A DNA stretch of 64,000 nucleotides from Adhaeribacter terrigena. GTDB taxonomy: Bacteria; Bacteroidota; Bacteroidia; Cytophagales; Hymenobacteraceae. Every line of letters starts with the position of its first letter. Position 1 is the stretch's first letter. A program made the position numbers and the translations under genes. The DNA is taken from assembly GCF_016623615.1 (NCBI RefSeq), contig NZ_JAEHFX010000002.1, positions 1 through 64,000 on the forward strand, in the 5' to 3' direction. This document shows, piece by piece, positions 5,812-39,702 of the stretch. Below the pieces are notes generated by a model. That model was not told the origin of the DNA. It worked only from the letters and a program-made list of their open reading frames with translations, and ran no database searches.

Positions 5812-5841
5812 AAAACGCTAGGGAAAATGAGCAAAAAAGTC
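5812..5841 (+). repeat. 30-bp uptake-signal-like repeat (over a start codon)
   Basis: Exact core AAAACGCTA at 5812-5820, W-tract in the middle, AAAAAAGTC at the end. The ATG of the GT4 gene (5827) lies inside the repeat, so it supplies both the upstream leader and the first codons (MSKKV). Confidence 0.7.
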
Positions 5842-6969
5842 GTGATCATCGGACCGGCCTATCCGTTGCGTGGCGGTCTGGCCACCTTTAACGAACGCCT
5901 GGCGCGCGCTTTTAACGAGGCCGGCGACGACGCTGAAATTGTAACGTTCAGCTTGCAGTATCCCGATTTTTTATTTCCCGGCCAGACCCAGTTCTCTACC
6001 GATCCTGCGCCAAAGGACCTGAAAATCAAAGCGCTTATCAATTCGGTAAACCCGCTGAGCTGGCTCAAAACCGGTTTATATTTAAAAAAGCAGAAACCTG
6101 ATATCGTGATCTTCCGGTTCTGGCTGCCTTTTATGGGCCCGGCCTTGGGAACCATTGCCCACATCATTTCCGGAAACAAACACACCAGAATTCTGGCCAT
6201 AACCGACAACGTAATACCGCACGAAAAGCGCCCAGGCGATTGGGTTTTTACGAAGTATTTTCTGAGCGCTTGTCACGGCTTTATTACCATGAGCCGCTCA
6301 GTGCTGGAAGATCTGAAAAAGTTCGTACCCGAAAAACCGGCCGTTTATCATCCGCATCCGCTTTATGACAATTTCGGCGAAAGTCAGCCCAAAACGGTAG
6401 CCAAAACGGCCTTAAAACTCGACCCCGAAACCAATTACCTGTTATTTTTCGGGTTCATTCGCGCTTACAAAGGCCTGGATCTATTGCTCGAAGCGTTTGC
6501 CGATGAGCGGTTAGCGAAATTGAAAAACGTAAAGCTGATCATTGCCGGCGAATACTACGAAGATGCGGAACCGTACGAAAAACTGATTCAAAAGTACAAC
6601 CTCGAAAACCGCCTTGTTCGGGCCACCGATTTTATTCCGAACAGCCAGGTAGCCACCTATTTCAGTGCCGCCGACTTAATTGTGCAGCCCTACAAAAATG
6701 CCACCCAAAGCGGCGTTTCCCAGATTGCCTACCACTTCGATAAACCCATGCTGGTTACGGATGTAGGCGGTTTAGCGGAATTAATTCCGGATGGAAAAGT
6801 TGGTTACGTAACGCAACCCAACACAAAAGCCATTGCCGATGCGATCTATGATTTCTACACTTCCGGTAAAGAAGCCTATTTTATTGAGCAGGTGAAGTTT
6901 TATAAGCAGCAGTTTTCCTGGAAGGCGATGTTGGGTGCGATTGAAGAAGTGGCGGGGAAGGTGAATTAA
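5827..6969 (+). CDS. Glycosyltransferase family 4
   Basis: 380 residues with a two-domain GT-B fold. The N-terminal domain starts VVIIGPAYPLRGGLATFNERL, with the glycine-rich acceptor loop at 13-18; the C-terminal GT1/GT4 domain runs from about 205 (YLLFFGFIRAYKGLDLLLEA) to 375, with the nucleotide-sugar motif region around PYKNATQSGVSQIAYHFDKP. It probably adds a sugar to a cell-surface glycan. It follows the GT2 gene by 15 bases in the same direction. An exact-core copy of the 30-bp repeat lies inside the gene at 6391-6420. Confidence 0.9.
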   Translation: MSKKVVIIGPAYPLRGGLATFNERLARAFNEAGDDAEIVTFSLQYPDFLFPGQTQFSTDPAPKDLKIKALINSVNPLSWLKTGLYLKKQKPDIVIFRFWLPFMGPALGTIAHIISGNKHTRILAITDNVIPHEKRPGDWVFTKYFLSACHGFITMSRSVLEDLKKFVPEKPAVYHPHPLYDNFGESQPKTVAKTALKLDPETNYLLFFGFIRAYKGLDLLLEAFADERLAKLKNVKLIIAGEYYEDAEPYEKLIQKYNLENRLVRATDFIPNSQVATYFSAADLIVQPYKNATQSGVSQIAYHFDKPMLVTDVGGLAELIPDGKVGYVTQPNTKAIADAIYDFYTSGKEAYFIEQVKFYKQQFSWKAMLGAIEEVAGKVN

Positions 6970-6971
6970 AT

Positions 6972-7100
6972 CGTAACGTTTAGGCTTTGTGGTGGGCGGG
7001 CTGCGGAGTACAAAACTGGCTATGTCTTATGAACTTGATTTAAAGTAAAAAGCTAGTAGGCTGGAAGTGCTTCCGCCTAATATAAAGCCCGTGTTAGCGA
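6972..7100 (-). repeat. attC-like imperfect palindrome 1
   Basis: The ends pair imperfectly: TAACGTTTAGGCTTTGT (6974 on) against TATAAAGCCCGTGTTAG (7081-7097), sharing GGCTTTRT and the outer TAAC/GTTA boxes. The 90-base middle is not self-complementary overall. It lies directly downstream of the minus-strand gene 7125-7538, where a cassette's recombination site would be. The boxes match the integron consensus RYYYAAC/GTTRRRY only in part. Confidence 0.45.
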
Positions 7101-7124
7101 TTCGGTGTTTTATTTTTATTCTTC

Positions 7125-7538
7125 TTACTCTTCCTCTAAGCTTCTGCCATACCAATGGCTTTTCTCAAATGTCAAAGAGGCAAATTGTTTTAAGGCTGAA
7201 CGCAATGGCTCAATTATTTCACCTTCATTTCCATTTATAGCCAATAAAACCTTAGGCTCTGAGATTTTGTCAAAAAGATCGTCTGTCTTAGAAATTGCCA
7301 AACTATAATTATTTGGATTTTTAGAAATATCAAAAAAATATGCAGGTACTTCAAGCCACCAGGTTATTCTTTTTGTTTCGTAATTTTGAAGTTTAGTTGT
7401 CACATAAATTAATTCGTCAATTGGGTCGTTAAGAACATTTGAGGCGTGGAAGTCAATTTTAAAGTCATTATGACTAAAAACCACAGGAAGCCATCCATAT
7501 TCAGGTTTTTCGAATTTTATTGAAATCCTGTTGTTCAT
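7125..7538 (-). CDS. Unknown small protein, cassette-like gene A
   Basis: I do not recognise the family. The frame is open up to 7640, but the first 34 residues would be read through the palindrome at 7593-7664, so I place the start at the ATG at 7538 (MNNRISIKFEKPEYG), giving 137 residues. The protein has no signal peptide or membrane helix and looks like a soluble alpha/beta protein rich in aromatic and acidic residues, ending KSHWYGRSLEEE. Base composition is clearly more AT-rich than the flanking glycosyltransferase genes. It is one of three minus-strand genes separated by attC-like palindromes. Confidence 0.6.
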   Translation of the reverse strand: MNNRISIKFEKPEYGWLPVVFSHNDFKIDFHASNVLNDPIDELIYVTTKLQNYETKRITWWLEVPAYFFDISKNPNNYSLAISKTDDLFDKISEPKVLLAINGNEGEIIEPLRSALKQFASLTFEKSHWYGRSLEEE

Positions 7539-7592
7539 ATTTTTTTGTCCAATTTGCAATTTTGACGATTTATTTGTTTTAATTTTCAATGA

Positions 7593-7664
7593 CCGCCAAC
7601 GTCCAGTGCATGAGGCGTGCAAGGCCGTCGGCCGAAGCATGGCTTATGCACTAGACGTTGGCGG
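7593..7664 (-). repeat. attC-like palindrome 2 (19-bp arms)
   Basis: 7593-7611 (CCGCCAACGTCCAGTGCAT) pairs with 7646-7664 at 18 of 19 positions. The arms begin and end with GCCAAC / GTTGGC, like integron R boxes. The spacer is GC-rich. It sits between the start of gene A and the stop of gene B, immediately downstream of B on the minus strand. There is no T run on either strand, so a terminator role is less likely. Confidence 0.6.
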
Positions 7665-7680
7665 TTCGGCGTTTTTTACT

Positions 7681-8136
7681 TTAATTTTTCTTATAATCAG
7701 GTATAAACTCTCGTGTATAACAAGTCTTATCTGTTTTAAATAAGCCTTTCTCAAATGCTTCCTTATGTAATTCTGGTAACTTCTTAAACCTTTTCATTCG
7801 GATTCTATCTACCTTCTTGAGTGTTATAAAATCATAGGTACCTCTTAACATCATTACAACCTCAACTTCATCACATTTATCATCAAGCCTTATAGATGCC
7901 CAATCTATTCCAACAGTACGAAACATAAGTTTTTTCACAGAAACAGGAAGCTCAATTTGGAAGAAACCATTTAAATCTGTTTTACCAACTTCAACTGTGT
8001 CGTTAATCACAATTGAAACATAGGGCAAGGTTTCCAAATGATTATCAACCACCCTTCCTTTAACTGTTTTGTCTTGAGAATACAGTCTACATATTGAAAG
8101 ACTGAATACAATAAAAAGAATTAACAACTTCCTCAT
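7681..8136 (-). CDS. Secreted carboxypeptidase-regulatory-like protein, cassette-like gene B
   Basis: 151 residues. A signal peptide (MRKLLILFIVFSLSICRLYS, cut near 21) is followed by a CarboxypepD-reg-like beta-sandwich: VKGRVVDNHLETLPYVSIVI...GKTDLNGFFQIELP at about 25-65, the pattern common in Bacteroidota exported proteins. The C-terminal half is basic (KKVDRIRMKRFKKL) and unrecognised. The domain alone does not indicate a function; it often forms a surface or receptor-associated module. The gene is AT-rich and lies between attC-like palindromes 2 and 3. Confidence 0.7.
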   Translation of the reverse strand: MRKLLILFIVFSLSICRLYSQDKTVKGRVVDNHLETLPYVSIVINDTVEVGKTDLNGFFQIELPVSVKKLMFRTVGIDWASIRLDDKCDEVEVVMMLRGTYDFITLKKVDRIRMKRFKKLPELHKEAFEKGLFKTDKTCYTREFIPDYKKN

Positions 8137-8194
8137 TCTGATATTATTCTCTTTCAGTTTGTATATCCTCTAAATCTTTGATTCTGCGCTGAGC

Positions 8195-8259
8195 GCTAAC
8201 GGCTGGTGTATAATGTGAGTGAGGCAGAGCCGAAACTTAAATTATACACTTTGTTGGAC
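8195..8259 (-). repeat. attC-like palindrome 3
   Basis: The outer boxes are GCTAAC (8195-8200) and GTTGGAC (8253-8259); the latter fits the integron R' consensus GTTRRRY exactly. The inner arms GTGTATAAT (8206-8214) and ATTATACAC (8241-8249) pair perfectly with an asymmetric mismatch segment between box and arm, as in attC sites. It lies 14 bases downstream of the stop codon of gene C on the minus strand. Confidence 0.6.
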
Positions 8260-8273
8260 AATGGTTTTCTTCA

Positions 8274-8834
8274 TTATTGTTTCTTGGAAAGCTTTACTTG
8301 TATTCCATTTTGGGCTGGTTTCAGCATAAAATTGATGTAAATTCTATCTGATACTATGGTATCATTAAATTGTCTGTAAAACTTAACGCTATATAAAATA
8401 CTATCAGCATCAGTTTTATATCCTAAAGGGAAAGCTACAGGATAATATAGTTGAGTAGGGTTTTGTCCAAGATAAATTGTCTTATAAAAATCGCTTTGGA
8501 AAACATTAATAAATGAATTCCAAGGTTCTTTTCCTTTTTCATAAACTTCCATTCCAATGTCGACACAAGAAGAGTCTTTTAAAGTTCTTACTGTGATTGG
8601 ATAAGGAGATAAATTGGCTGCTTTAAATGAAATTAAATAATTGCTTTTTTCATTTGAGGGCATTGTTAGTTTCTGATTTTTGAATTCGGTAACTGAAATG
8701 TCTGTAATATTTATACCTTCAAATTCAGCATCCTCCTTTTTTTCTATAGGGTTGCTTAATTTAGACTTATTGCAGCTTAACAAACTTGCTAAAGCAAGGT
8801 GTATAAAAATTAGAATCGCAAATTTCATATTCAT
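8274..8834 (-). CDS. Unknown lipoprotein, cassette-like gene C
   Basis: 186 residues with a lipoprotein signal: hydrophobic stretch 5-19 and a lipobox SLLSC with Cys21, then an acidic linker. The mature part (about 40-180) looks like a beta-sandwich (NYLISFKAANLSPYPITVRTL) and is not a family I know. An alternative start at Met3 is equally good. AT-rich, like the two other small genes downstream of it on the same strand. Confidence 0.65.
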   Translation of the reverse strand: MNMKFAILIFIHLALASLLSCNKSKLSNPIEKKEDAEFEGINITDISVTEFKNQKLTMPSNEKSNYLISFKAANLSPYPITVRTLKDSSCVDIGMEVYEKGKEPWNSFINVFQSDFYKTIYLGQNPTQLYYPVAFPLGYKTDADSILYSVKFYRQFNDTIVSDRIYINFMLKPAQNGIQVKLSKKQ

Positions 8835-8885
8835 AAGGATTCTGATTGATTCTTATACTTTTTCAAACTTATAAATTTAACTATT

Positions 8886-8936
8886 GCCCAACTAGTATAT
8901 AAACCGAATATTCGGCTTATCTCCACTATACTTGGA
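8886..8936 (-). repeat. attC-like palindrome 4
   Basis: It opens with GCCCAAC (8886-8892), an exact RYYYAAC box, followed by TAGTATA; the other end reads TATACTTGG (8927-8935), so the arms pair with a 3-base gap. A perfect inner palindrome CCGAATATTCGG sits at 8904-8915. It lies between the stop of the GT9 gene and the start of gene C, closing the cassette-like block. Confidence 0.5.
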
Positions 8937-8943
8937 ATAAACT

Positions 8944-10059
8944 TTACACCAACGGCTGCAAAATTCGATCCTCCGTAGCTAACGTTTTCTGCACAAATTC
9001 AAACACCTTCTCCGCCGGCAATTCCTCCATGCACGAAACGCCGAATTTACAGGTACCACGATAAAAGCATGCGCATTGCTTTTCCGGCTGCACAATAAAG
9101 CCGCGGCCGTAGAGGTCAAATTCGTAGGGGTTGAAGATGTTGTTCATGAGCACGATCTTTTTCTGCAGCGCAATGGCAATGTGCATGGCCATGGTAACCT
9201 GCGTCACGATCAGATTCATCTGGTACATCAGGTTGATGAACTTGGGCAGCTCAAAATAACCCAGGTACAAGGCATTGGTCACTTCGGCCAGGCGGTTGTT
9301 GCGTTCGTGTTCGGCTTCGCCACCTAAAAGCACCGGCTGGTAACCCGCATCTTCCAGCAATTCAATTAAGGTTATCCATTTTTCGTCGCTCCACAAACGG
9401 GTGGTCCAGCGGTCGCCGCAACCGGTGTTTAAACCAACCAGCGGTTTGCTGCGGTCCAGATTCCAGTTATAGCCTTTGTCTTCGTGATTGTCGAAAATGT
9501 ATTCCTCGTGGTTAAATTCCCAGCCGCAGAGTTCAAAAATTTCCTGCACGTAAGGTTTTGTATTTTGCTGGCTCAGATCATCGAAAACGCCGGTTAGATA
9601 TTTGTGATTGGCCAGGGCGTTGGAAGGAAAAGCGACGCCGTTTTTCAGCGTATAACCGAATTTATGGGTGGCTTTCAGCGAATCGTGCAGGGCACAGGCT
9701 TCCTTGTCTTTGTCTAAATTGAAAAGCACATCGAAATGCAGTTGCTGCAAATAAAGCACGCTGGCCAAATCAAATTTCAGAATTTCATCGATCGCATTTT
9801 TGGGCAAAATGGCCGGCGTAAGCGTAAGCCAGGTGATTTTCGCGTTCGGGTATTCGGCCCGGATCTTATGCAAAAGGGGCGTAGTTCTTATCACATCGCC
9901 GATGGCGCCGAGCTTGATAATAAGAATGCGTTTTTCAATAGGGCTATACGCCGGACAGGTGCAATGATAACCATGTTGTTTGTGCGGTAAACAAGGAAGA
10001 TCGCCTTTAAAATAGATACAATCGGTATTCAGCGTTACGCCTTTTACTACATCAGCCAT
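8944..10059 (-). CDS. GT9-family glycosyltransferase (heptosyltransferase-like) with cysteine clusters
   Basis: 371 residues. ILIIKLGAIGDVIRTTPLL (about 45-63) is the N-terminal motif of ADP-heptose:LPS heptosyltransferases (GT9), and VGLNTGCGDRWTTRLW (about 209-224) matches the start of the donor-binding domain. Two additions stand out: an N-terminal extension with four cysteines (Cys14, Cys23, Cys33, Cys35 plus histidines), and a C-terminal cluster CACFYRGTCKFGVSCM. They could bind a metal or Fe-S cluster; this is inference. It probably acts in cell-surface glycan synthesis. Confidence 0.85.
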   Translation of the reverse strand: MADVVKGVTLNTDCIYFKGDLPCLPHKQHGYHCTCPAYSPIEKRILIIKLGAIGDVIRTTPLLHKIRAEYPNAKITWLTLTPAILPKNAIDEILKFDLASVLYLQQLHFDVLFNLDKDKEACALHDSLKATHKFGYTLKNGVAFPSNALANHKYLTGVFDDLSQQNTKPYVQEIFELCGWEFNHEEYIFDNHEDKGYNWNLDRSKPLVGLNTGCGDRWTTRLWSDEKWITLIELLEDAGYQPVLLGGEAEHERNNRLAEVTNALYLGYFELPKFINLMYQMNLIVTQVTMAMHIAIALQKKIVLMNNIFNPYEFDLYGRGFIVQPEKQCACFYRGTCKFGVSCMEELPAEKVFEFVQKTLATEDRILQPLV

Positions 10060-37466: not shown

Positions 37467-37781
37467 AGCAATCACAGAAGTTGTGGAGGAAATAGAGATG
37501 AGTTTTCATTCGAGGAGCTTTCGCCAGAAACTCAAAAAATCTGGATTGAAACAGGAATGGTAAATTCAGTAGAATGCTTCTTCTTTGTTGTGAATGTAAT
37601 GAGCTTTTAGCAATCTTTGAAATAGAAGAATTAAAATTGAAAACCAGGTAACTCTGGTTTTTTGCGAATAAAATTTTGTATATAGAGTAATAATTTAATA
37701 AACTGGAAAAGCTAAGTACAAACTTAATGCAGATAACCGTAGTAGTGTTGTTTATCCCGTAATTAGTATTAATTAAAATCT
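37467..37781. other. Intergenic region with a terminator and a possible gene relic
   Basis: A frame open from 37467 to a TAG at 37608-37610 contains EELSPETQKIWIETGMVNS but no convincing start, so it may be a leftover of a small gene. The terminator at 37640-37663 follows. The rest is AT-rich and probably holds the promoter of the lipoprotein gene. Confidence 0.35.
37640..37663 (+). terminator. Intrinsic terminator
   Basis: AAAACCAG pairs with CTGGTTTT around a 6-base loop and ends in six T residues. Confidence 0.75.
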
Positions 37782-38669
37782 ATGAAGATAAAATATTTTG
37801 GCTTGATGCTTTTTTTATGTGCTTTCCAAAATTGTAACCAAAAAAAGGATGCTTCTCAACAGAGTCTTCTTAAAGAGAAACAAAGCGAAATAAGTTTTAG
37901 CCGTATCAATGAGAAAGAGCGGATTGATTGGAAGAAAATTGAAGTAACGGTAAGTGAGACAGAACGATCAAAGGCTGTAGAAAAACTTAAGAAGCACTTT
38001 GAATATATTTTTAATAATGAATATTATTCAGGTCAGCCATTCGAAAGAACTATCCATTTTTTAGATTTAAATGGTGATAAAGTCTTGGATGTGATTGTAG
38101 AAGGCTACAGCGGAGCTGAATCAGATAATACTCAAATTTTCCTTGCGGAAAACAATGATTTTAAAAAAGTATTAGAGAAATCCCAATACGTTAAATCAAT
38201 TAAAATAAAGGATGGACAACTAGAATCTTTAACGATGTTAGATTTTGGTTGCTGTGCTGAATACGTGGAATATGAAACCAAGTATAAAATCACTTCTTCT
38301 TTCTCCGCTACACCAATTAATCAAAAAGCAATAGCTTCGTTTGAGAAGAAGCCAAAAAACAGCTTTCTTAAGAAACCTAAATCTATATTCATTCTTCAAG
38401 AGAATACAGCGTTAAGGTCTTCTCCAATTTTTGATGATACTTCAACCGTAATTTACGACTCAGAAGGAACTGGTAATGTTTTAGCAAAGTATCCTGAAAA
38501 TTCTCCAGGATTTGCTTGGGTGTCGGAAACTGATAGCAATGGTAAAAAATGGTGGTATGTAGAAATTCAACCCGTTAAATCTGTAAAAGAAAGTTTGCTC
38601 TACCAAAAAGATGATATCCCTACAAATGGGATGGGATGGATGAGAGAAGATCAATTTGGAGTTAAGTAA
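37782..38669 (+). CDS. Unknown lipoprotein with SH3-like C-terminus
   Basis: 295 residues. Lipoprotein signal with Cys18 in the context LCAFQNC. The middle has a VCBS/EF-hand-like segment (HFLDLNGDKVLDVIVEGYSG, about 92-111). The C-terminal 100 residues (ENTALRSSPIFDD ... WWYVEI) look like a bacterial SH3 module. I know no function. The gene is AT-rich and has no copy of the 30-bp repeat, unlike most neighbours, and sits between the AraC gene and an IS element beside a tRNA gene, so recent acquisition is possible. Confidence 0.7.
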   Translation: MKIKYFGLMLFLCAFQNCNQKKDASQQSLLKEKQSEISFSRINEKERIDWKKIEVTVSETERSKAVEKLKKHFEYIFNNEYYSGQPFERTIHFLDLNGDKVLDVIVEGYSGAESDNTQIFLAENNDFKKVLEKSQYVKSIKIKDGQLESLTMLDFGCCAEYVEYETKYKITSSFSATPINQKAIASFEKKPKNSFLKKPKSIFILQENTALRSSPIFDDTSTVIYDSEGTGNVLAKYPENSPGFAWVSETDSNGKKWWYVEIQPVKSVKESLLYQKDDIPTNGMGWMREDQFGVK

Positions 38670-38752
38670 AAACAACTCATACCAACAAAACTTAAAGCAC
38701 ATTAAAACGTGCCTTACCCAGTATGGTAATAGAAAATTATAAAAAATAATCT

Positions 38753-39540
38753 GGTAGAGGTTCAGAAAGTATGATTGGATAAAAAAAGGCAGTGAAGTGT
38801 TTAAGATGATGGAATGTTCGAAGTCCACATCAAAATAAACTGTCCTCACTGCCAGAGCAGCAAGATAGTAAAAAACGGAAAGAAAAAGAACGGCGCTCAG
38901 AATCTGTTGTGCCGAGCTTGCGGGAAGCAGTTTCAGCCTGTTTATCAGTACAAGGGTGCAGATCCGGGGGTGAAACAGACCATTTTGCGTCTTTTGGAGA
39001 GGAATAATGGCATCCGCGATATTGAGCAGATCCTGGGAATAAGCCGTAATTGCGTACTCAAAACGCTATTGGATCAAGGGAATGAGATCCAGATCAAGCC
39101 TTGGTTCAAGCATTATAAGTCAGTTCAGATAGATGAAGTGTGGAGTTATGTGGGCAGGCGCAAGAAAGGCAAATACTGGCTTTTATATGCTTACTGTCCT
39201 GAAAGCGATGAAATTCTGGCGTATGTGTGCGGCAGCAGAAGTGCTAAAACGGTACGGGCTTTAATGAAAAAACTGCAGGGAATAGAAATTGAGGAATTCT
39301 GCACCGACCATTGGAAAGCCTTTGCTCAGGTTTTGCCGGAGGAAAAGCACAAGATAGGTAAAGCTTATACCAAAAACATAGAAGGCGTAAATACCTGCAT
39401 CAGAGCCAGAAACAGGCGTTTTGTAAGAAAAACCACCTGCTTCTCAAAGAAAAAAGAAAACCACTTAGCTGCTTTAAATATAATGTTCAACTACCGAAAT
39501 AACCATAAAGCAAAGCATCATACTTTCTGAACCACTACCA
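38753..39540 (+). mobile_element. Complete IS1-family insertion sequence
   Basis: 788 bp. Terminal inverted repeats of 23 bp (38753-38775, GGTAGAGGTTCAGAAAGTAT...; 39518-39540 as the complement) match at 22 of 23 positions. They are flanked by identical 8-bp target duplications AATAATCT (38745-38752 and 39541-39548). One intact transposase gene lies inside. The intact ends and duplication mean a recent and probably still mobile insertion. Confidence 0.95.
38814..39530 (+). CDS. IS1-family transposase, single-frame InsAB
   Basis: 238 residues. N-terminal zinc finger (CPHCQSSKIVKNG ... CRACGKQF) as in InsA; DDE-type catalytic part as in InsB: QIDEVWSYVGRRKKGKYWLLYAY, SAKTVRALMKKLQ, CTDHWKAFAQVLP and EEKHKIGKAYTKNIEGVN. 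In classical IS1 the two parts are joined by programmed frameshifting; here they form one continuous frame, as in other single-ORF IS1 members. It carries one exact-core 30-bp motif (39246-39275) within the conserved SAKTVR region. Confidence 0.95.
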   Translation: MFEVHIKINCPHCQSSKIVKNGKKKNGAQNLLCRACGKQFQPVYQYKGADPGVKQTILRLLERNNGIRDIEQILGISRNCVLKTLLDQGNEIQIKPWFKHYKSVQIDEVWSYVGRRKKGKYWLLYAYCPESDEILAYVCGSRSAKTVRALMKKLQGIEIEEFCTDHWKAFAQVLPEEKHKIGKAYTKNIEGVNTCIRARNRRFVRKTTCFSKKKENHLAALNIMFNYRNNHKAKHHTF

Positions 39541-39605: not shown

Positions 39606-39618
39606 AATGTGTAATAGT

Positions 39619-39702
39619 ACCCAGAGCCGGGGTCGAACCGGCACATCCGTGAAGATATTGGTGTTTGAGACCAACGCGTCTACCGATTCCGCCATCTGGG
39701 CA
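39619..39702 (-). tRNA. tRNA-Leu (CAA)
   Basis: On the minus strand the acceptor GCCCAGA pairs with TCTGGGT (G-U at the first pair), followed by discriminator A. The anticodon stem TTGGT/ACCAA holds the loop CTCAAAC with anticodon CAA, reading leucine UUG. A long variable arm (TATCTTCACGGATGT) confirms a class II tRNA. The 3' CCA is not encoded. The IS element inserted 70 bases beyond its 3' end. Confidence 0.95.

Follow-up and report, generated by a model that had tools for sequence, protein, structure and literature searches.

The locus studied here, in the genome of Adhaeribacter terrigena, raises the question of whether three small genes, each followed by a hairpin and together enclosed by two host glycosyltransferase genes, form an array of integron cassettes and, if so, which integrase would serve an array that has none beside it. 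The locus lies within a window of 64,000 nucleotides, bases 1–64000 of contig C17 (NZ_JAEHFX010000002.1), in a genome of 4.43 Mb on 24 contigs; we call this genome G000 and that of a sister species G001, and denote extracted loci by L-numbers. A preliminary description of the same DNA had proposed a cluster of attC sites lacking an integrase (CALIN), left behind by an integron. Our analysis instead favors, with a probability of about 0.82, a Bacteroidia integron-like platform that consists of an attI-like site and three cassettes and is served by an integrase that is not IntI, encoded on contig C21.

The block comprises three units of a minus-strand gene and a downstream hairpin, all three hairpins being matched on the plus strand, antisense to the genes. 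Cassette 1 (8274–8834) is an open reading frame (ORF) of 186 amino acids, lipoprotein-like by eye and without a Pfam match, and is followed by a hairpin of the short type at 8194–8259. Cassette 2 (7681–8136, 151 amino acids) carries a CarboxypepD_reg-like domain (PF13715, 32.7 bits; cut-off 32.2) and is followed by a short-type, nearly fully palindromic hairpin at 7594–7663. Cassette 3 (7125–7535), an ORF of 136 amino acids that reaches the cut-off of no Pfam or NCBIfam family, is followed by a hairpin of the long type at 6971–7099; its protein is 31% identical to a stretch of a Rufibacter array (L148). The genes lie where they had been described before, except that we read the third from 7535 and not 7538. 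At the head of the block, on the minus strand, is the fourth palindrome (8887–8938), and immediately upstream of it a glycosyltransferase family 9 gene (8944–10059, minus strand, PF01075) oriented like the cassettes; a glycosyltransferase group 1 gene (5827–6969, plus strand, PF00534) forms the other flank. Both flanking genes are assigned to the host by family and synteny.

To examine the hairpins we used covariance models built entirely from other genomes: R1, from 45 short sites, and R2, from 16 long sites, whose consensus structure is weak. R1 is restricted to short sites having a GGC..GCC centre (all 45 that passed this filter), hairpins of 45–48 bases fall outside both models, and R2 omits five of 21 long candidates, four judged by eye to be chance finds (misoriented or inside ORFs) and one at L055:8621. 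Among the 45 short sites the AACG and GTT boxes are invariant, and 10 of 19 predicted pairs show double compensatory changes. R1 matched the hairpins of cassette 2 (62.1 bits, expectation value (E) 4e-14) and cassette 1 (57.4 bits, E 7e-13) and, up to E 10 in the window, nothing else apart from the reverse strand of 7594–7663 (24.9 bits). R2 matched the hairpin of cassette 3 (43 bits, E 4.5e-8), followed by the already known 8194–8259 (27 bits), with the remainder at E 0.87 or above. Because models derived from other genomes match all three gene ends, we accept the three hairpins as attC-type sites and the repeated unit as a cassette array, as the preliminary description had supposed.

Folding by itself would have been a less even guide. 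When single-stranded plus-strand DNA was compared with 200 dinucleotide shuffles, z was −7.7 for the second hairpin (7580–7676), −3.8 for the first (8184–8265), −2.0 for the fourth palindrome (8876–8950) and −1.2 for the third hairpin (6966–7115); the long hairpin is unremarkable by folding alone. In the output of a repeat finder no inverted repeat of positions 6000–10000 was longer than the second hairpin, and the other hairpins had no special rank; no Rfam family reached its gathering score at the block, the sole such match in the window being a tRNA at 39618–39701. Some attC-like sites are near-perfect palindromes in which the asymmetric spacers are lost, as at window positions 7592–7665 and at L038 5434–5502.

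Such sites also occur elsewhere in G000. R1 gave 34 rows at E ≤1 genome-wide, two of them reverse-strand duplicates, which cluster at the contig ends of C21, C19 and C2 and on the 3.2-kb contig C9, the others being scattered. On C21 the cluster adjoins an integrase: a 487-residue tyrosine recombinase (1173–2636), behind which two small genes on the same strand end with hairpins of the window type, both matched by R1, before the contig breaks off. One of the two encodes a CdiI-type immunity protein (Pfam). C21 and C19 open with 75 identical bases and C2 and C20 close nearly alike, a pattern that assembly breaks at repeated cassettes would produce. Around 20 integrases of this kind we found arrays of small, mostly co-oriented genes with hairpins between them. 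A site scanner with a fixed threshold placed 80 sites in the 206 kb downstream of these integrases, 76 of them pointing the same way relative to the integrase, and two in the 81 kb upstream, whereas dinucleotide shuffles of all 20 loci lead one to expect about 1.2 sites; the orientation count is partly dependent, the scanner and its asymmetric-spacer rule having been devised after the first arrays were seen. Its fit is uneven (no sites at L050 and L054; one of two concordant at L038, four of five at L048, one of three at L056), and the spacer rule misses the symmetrical second window hairpin (7594–7663).

A recognizable site of about 50 bp around AGTT, common to 17 of 21 loci, lies between the integrase and the first cassette. 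A sequence-only model of these 17 sites (R3), with anchors chosen by eye, excludes the window site and four loci without a recognized site (L054–L057). The fourth palindrome, previously described as a further attC at 8886–8936, aligns with these sites and matches R3 (29.6 bits, E 7.4e-8), as does its G001 counterpart (24.6 bits); 8887–8938 matches neither R1 nor R2. Judged by these models, it is an attI-like site and not an attC. The exact consensus strings pointed out earlier are both present, GTTGGAC at 8253 and GCCCAAC at 8886, but the latter belongs to the attI-like site, and the canonical RYYYAAC left box fits five of the 45 modelled sites, the GTTRRRY right box seven and both together one, and no window attC (0/3) has both.

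Such attI-like sites are numerous and dispersed. At E ≤0.1, R3 found 12–39 per genome in all ten searched genomes of four genera (12 in G000, the integrase-adjacent one included) and none in six of six genomes of two genera that lack the system; for eight genomes from other families every match had E >0.04. In G000 and G001, 25 of 29 attI-like sites have a correctly oriented attC within 2 kb downstream and none of the 29 has one upstream, a count that covers 17 of 19 G001 rows and leaves out one of 30 R3 rows (L137 4081–4123, 12.9 bits, adjoined by a stronger opposite-strand site; with it, 25/30 and 1/30) and three of 57 R1 rows (two reverse-strand duplicates and L128 2139–2181). Two of the 29 (L001 and L047) are members of R3, and at two a wrongly oriented attC is also found downstream. 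Likewise, an ORF followed by a correctly oriented scanner site lies at 15 of 20 high-scoring attI-like sites that were distant from integrases, came from seven genomes and were chosen blind to attC.

We also noted short frames that run through the attI-like site and end at the crossover TAG (for example L113–L115 and L117). Frames of at least 30 codons ending there occur at 20 of 53 attI-like sites, versus five and six in the other frames; the window site has none. They recall the attI leader ORF of class 1 integrons. In L113, L125 and L126 (from G003 and G008) an ORF of equal size (438 amino acids, opposite strand) lies behind the first cassette and is perhaps an insertion sequence targeting attC.

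The profile for integron integrases picks out four frames in G000, none above the cut-off and none within the 64-kb window, so that the earlier statement that no integrase lies in the window was correct, and the integrase search it had recommended yielded one enzyme, on C21. This frame, the best of the four, matches TIGR02249 in two stretches (203.9 bits; cut-off 265), its best NCBIfam model being recomb_XerA_Arch (215.5 bits, slightly below the cut-off of 220); separate Xer-like frames are also present. Aligned with IntI4 (2a3v) it covers residues 11–179 and 247–320, and about 24 residues replace the 67 of IntI4 positions 180–246; by this alignment it lacks the IntI-specific insertion. Columns invariant among 17 integrase proteins include R345, H434, R437, H460 and Y469, which we take to be the catalytic residues of the tyrosine recombinase core. 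The C21 integrase is 57–63% identical to twelve proteins of the same family and 35–40% identical to four others (alignment A4), and the full-length relatives share with it both the core and the N-terminal region. In a quick tree of 63 proteins made without bootstrap, IntI formed one clade (support 100), and 17 of the 18 grouped proteins fell into a separate Bacteroidota group (support 80) with L057 outside; the integrase of Rufibacter, also of the Hymenobacteraceae, falls among the proteins from the family of G000.

The C21 integrase has about 200 extra N-terminal residues. Its predicted structure (mean predicted local distance difference test score, pLDDT, 81.6; 83.9 for the N-terminal part alone) places two beta-beta-alpha-beta-beta-alpha-beta copies ahead of the core. 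In a structural comparison of these domains the top seven rows were XPB chains (Z 6.4–5.3 over 54–57 residues), families absent from the search listings not being counted as excluded. The HARP domain of SMARCAL1 (4o66) was found with a probability of 0.63 at E 0.2, no Foldseek match reached E ≤0.001, and Pfam HARP appeared in one of 17 integrase members at E 0.19.

Upstream of the integrase, CGTTTATA-type half sites that resemble the attI core are repeated (L001 2670–2730, and at 11 other integrases). There are 22 in 12 regions, against 0.65 expected from shuffles, and none in three regions, with a pattern that was picked post hoc; the half sites could possibly serve autoregulation. The CTAA-N5-TTAG sequence, given as the Bacteroidetes LexA motif in PMC8565304, is absent from the 12 integrase upstream regions. 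A divergent gene for a small cysteine-rich protein (125 amino acids, L001 2733–3110) lies beside the integrase, and its relatives by other integrases are 58–65% identical.

The two glycosyltransferase genes are convergent and adjacent in nine of 24 searched genomes besides G000 and G001; the gap between them ranges from an overlap to about 540 bp in these nine outgroups, versus about 2.0 kb in G000 and 3.4 kb in G001. Neither attC nor attI models match between the two genes in any of the nine outgroup loci. The G001 site holds an attI-like site, two other cassettes, whose attC sites score 34 and 31 bits, and another two genes, and the cassettes of the G000 block have no match there. The sister comparison that had been proposed earlier thus finds the platform kept, the cassettes unrelated, and nine outgroups without either. 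The origin of an attI-like site bearing cassettes at this place therefore dates to the common ancestor of G000 and G001 or earlier, and at least one of the two lineages has since exchanged its cassettes for others. Besides this site, three other pairs of platforms are orthologous by their flanks (L140/L132, L144/L133 and L146/L047). At L146/L047, G001 has a full integron and G000 an attI-like site with one cassette, so that sister species differ in whether this place carries an integrase. Two G000 platforms traced to rearranged G001 neighbourhoods (10–13 kb of other genes) with no attI match and no convincing attC; because of the rearrangement, unit borders are unreadable from these two.

Cassettes are also shared between places. 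Gene and attC travel as one unit: cassette 1 is 47% identical to a paralog in the C19 array, and their attC sites match each other at 60 of 67 alignment columns. Between genomes, DNA identity is 88% for a cassette from one of the scattered G000 platforms and one in the G001 main array, 91% for an integrase-adjacent G000 cassette and a scattered G001 platform, and 86% for cassettes of scattered platforms in both. Within G000, a cassette at L001 and one of a platform on C22 are 80% identical as proteins, and one array cassette is 79% identical as protein to a cassette in G033, of another family. A tblastn search of plasmids with cassette 1 gave no match.

How widely is the system distributed? 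Among 39 genomes, G000 included, attC sites were present in all 16 from four genera, its own included, in none of nine from two sister genera and, in other families, in G026 (one) and G033 (six); these are minimum counts, since only some of the first-look candidates were scored. An integrase, full or partial, is found in 15 of the 16 and, among the nine, as one fragment of 133 amino acids. Besides G000, 11 genomes have one of near-full length (one with an in-frame stop), and three of the same genera have partial or broken ones. In a wider sample, short-type attC occurred in at least 70 of 120 genomes of the family and in five of six genera. In genera that otherwise lack the system in our samples, we observed an integrase fragment (G004:C1:448910–449305) and a single attC match in G668, with no other match listed for the genus of the latter; these are traces of loss or transfer.

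Beyond the family, an integrase profile of which the C21 protein was a member reached E ≤1e-75 in 146 of the 295 genomes sampled from the class. Most listed matches begin near position 100–120, corresponding to the core and about one N-terminal domain, and some comprise the core only. Cassettes were examined in some of the 146 genomes, and 42 of 80 named-record loci were scanned for sites. At least three sites lie behind the integrase in Rufibacter, Flavobacteriaceae S0862, Winogradskyella, Seonamhaeicola, Flavobacterium aciduliphilum, Algibacter and a Bacteroidetes metagenome-assembled genome (GWF2), one site among them against the expected orientation; of these, F. aciduliphilum, Algibacter and GWF2 have integrases that the tree does not place in the Bacteroidota group (support 80). 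At many other loci the sequence stops close to the integrase or no site is seen, and Pontibacter L154 has an attI-like site with no attC above threshold. Relatives of the integrase core also lie at 80 loci on viral contigs. We also observed core relatives in archaeal and candidate-phyla metagenomic contigs (L168, L183, L187 and L191); because these matches begin at query residue 209 or later, they lie outside the N-terminal domains.

The window contains a second attI-like site (37726–37768, plus strand; R3 25.7 bits, E 1.3e-6), behind which lies a lone cassette-like ORF of 295 amino acids (37782–38669, plus strand). By eye, a stretch behind this gene (about 38683–38729) resembles an attC cut by a transposase-like ORF (38814–39530, 238 amino acids), which is IS1-like by appearance only.

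Several observations weigh against an integrase-served platform. The window platform has no integrase of its own, nor, in the 260 bases examined, a TAnnTT-G promoter-like box; at the second attI-like site of the window neither R1 nor the scanner detects an attC, and three of 17 G001 attI-like sites are likewise without one. G008 has attC sites and platforms yet no intact integrase. Integrase remnants upstream of dispersed platforms are convincing in two of 46 cases (L129 and L116), which leaves the scattering of attI-like sites unexplained; a candidate remnant at L115, a weak match to the upstream extension of one relative's frame, was not counted. The likeness of the N-terminal domains to XPB and HARP folds, with Z up to 6.4, is weak and may reflect a mere common arrangement. 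Cassette 1 and its array paralog, at 47% identity, record no recent exchange for the window platform. Finally, no recombination was observed: sequence comparison shows the anatomy, conservation and turnover of the system, and the activity of the integrase, its action in trans and its recognition of hairpins are inferred.

The most serious alternative is that the platform is a fossil, filled long ago and now inert, the integrase working only on its adjacent array. The missing neighbouring integrase and the 47% identity would suit such a history, as would the weak folding of the third attC (z −1.2), the near symmetry of the second, and the remnants by two other platforms, an integrase pseudogene by L129 in the sister genome and an integrase fragment by L116 in G008. 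However, the sister species retains the platform with none of these cassettes, and cassettes at scattered platforms recur in integrase-borne arrays, at 88 and 91% DNA identity when two genomes are compared and at 80% protein identity inside G000. We therefore regard a fossil as unlikely, though it deserves more weight than any other alternative.

It is less probable still that the attI-like site is a native secondary site of the attG kind into which cassettes of the main array inserted by chance. According to PMC12901181, attG sites are likewise recombined by integron integrases, and the window site lies directly behind a host gene; attG insertions, too, put cassettes at scattered chromosomal places. 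Here, by contrast, the scattered places bear a long attI-like sequence, about 50 bp of which resemble the integrase-adjacent attI, and such sites number 12–39 in ten of ten genomes of four genera and zero in six of six of two genera free of the system. Moreover, the outgroups have no match behind the same glycosyltransferase gene.

The remaining proposal of the preliminary description, a CALIN of a classical IntI integron, fares worse and seems to us very improbable. As in a CALIN, several attC sites occur without an adjoining integrase, and single boxes fit the canonical strings. Unlike a CALIN, the block is headed by an attI-like site of its own, and a matching, dedicated non-IntI integrase is found elsewhere in the genome, which has no IntI above the family cut-off. 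Both canonical boxes are present in just one of 45 modelled sites of relatives, and R1 is blank in six regions, 103 kb in all, that surround classical IntI genes and whose own attC sites were not themselves located; a looser scanner found few sites and no clear array in the same six regions. Ordinary short repeats or transcription terminators, suggested by the position of the hairpins between genes, can be dismissed given the conserved boxes, the gene-matched orientation, the clustering behind integrases and the absence from the nine sister-genus genomes searched.

The integrase-served platform resembles classical integrons, sedentary chromosomal ones included, in having small genes each with a 3′ hairpin site, in an array that begins at an attI-like site beside a tyrosine recombinase, in the C-terminal SPLxxL ending common to this integrase and IntI, and in how few cassette proteins have a Pfam family (here two of seven reach the cut-off). 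IntI is usually divergent from its cassettes, whereas this integrase is co-directional with them in G000 and in the mapped arrays; it also lacks the IntI insertion, lies outside the IntI clade and has the extra N-terminal residues. The boxes are AACG and GTT and rarely RYYYAAC and GTTRRRY, and attI-like sites number 12–39 per genome. Because the IntI insertion, the canonical box pair and the divergent integrase were looked for and are not found here, we conclude that this is not a classical integron. The enzyme shares catalytic and core-binding domains with XerA, XerC and XerD; simple recombinases usually consist of just these two domains (PMC8138268), and the C21 integrase has N-terminal domains in addition.

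Classical IntI above the cut-off occurs in 84 of 296 genomes of the phylum, one listed (G075) being from the class of G000. Two papers count Bacteroidota (PMC8618304) or the Bacteroidetes/Chlorobi group (PMC2426708) among integron bearers, and in the IntegronFinder 2.0 paper (PMC9024848) a complete integron of Bacteroidetes proper is reported for Salinibacter ruber alone. Our searches of open-licence PubMed Central papers, a scope that leaves out most subscription papers and all preprints, listed none that names an integron class of the present kind.

Given an integrase-served platform, we envisage that cassettes circularise, each carrying its gene and attC, and that the C21 integrase, active and acting in trans on the window platform, would recombine the double-stranded attI-like site with an attC folded from one strand into a hairpin. 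Cassettes would then enter at 8887–8938 and stack on the minus strand behind the glycosyltransferase gene. The two N-terminal domains, weakly XPB/SMARCAL1-like, may substitute for the IntI insertion in recognizing the folded hairpin. More tentatively, and with rather less confidence than we place in the platform itself, we suggest that Bacteroidia might harbour a second integron lineage that came to hairpin-based gene capture along a different protein route, with an Xer/IntI-related recombinase bearing tandem HARP/XPB-DRD-like domains instead of the IntI insertion, in which a single enzyme acts on dozens of inherited attI platforms dispersed behind host genes and cassettes are exchanged among many loci, not within one array. 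Should the system work in this way, an extensive reservoir of mobile genes would have gone unnoticed in a dominant phylum, gene capture would be spread over many chromosomal loci, and these bacteria would possess an alternative way to recognize a folded single-stranded recombination site.

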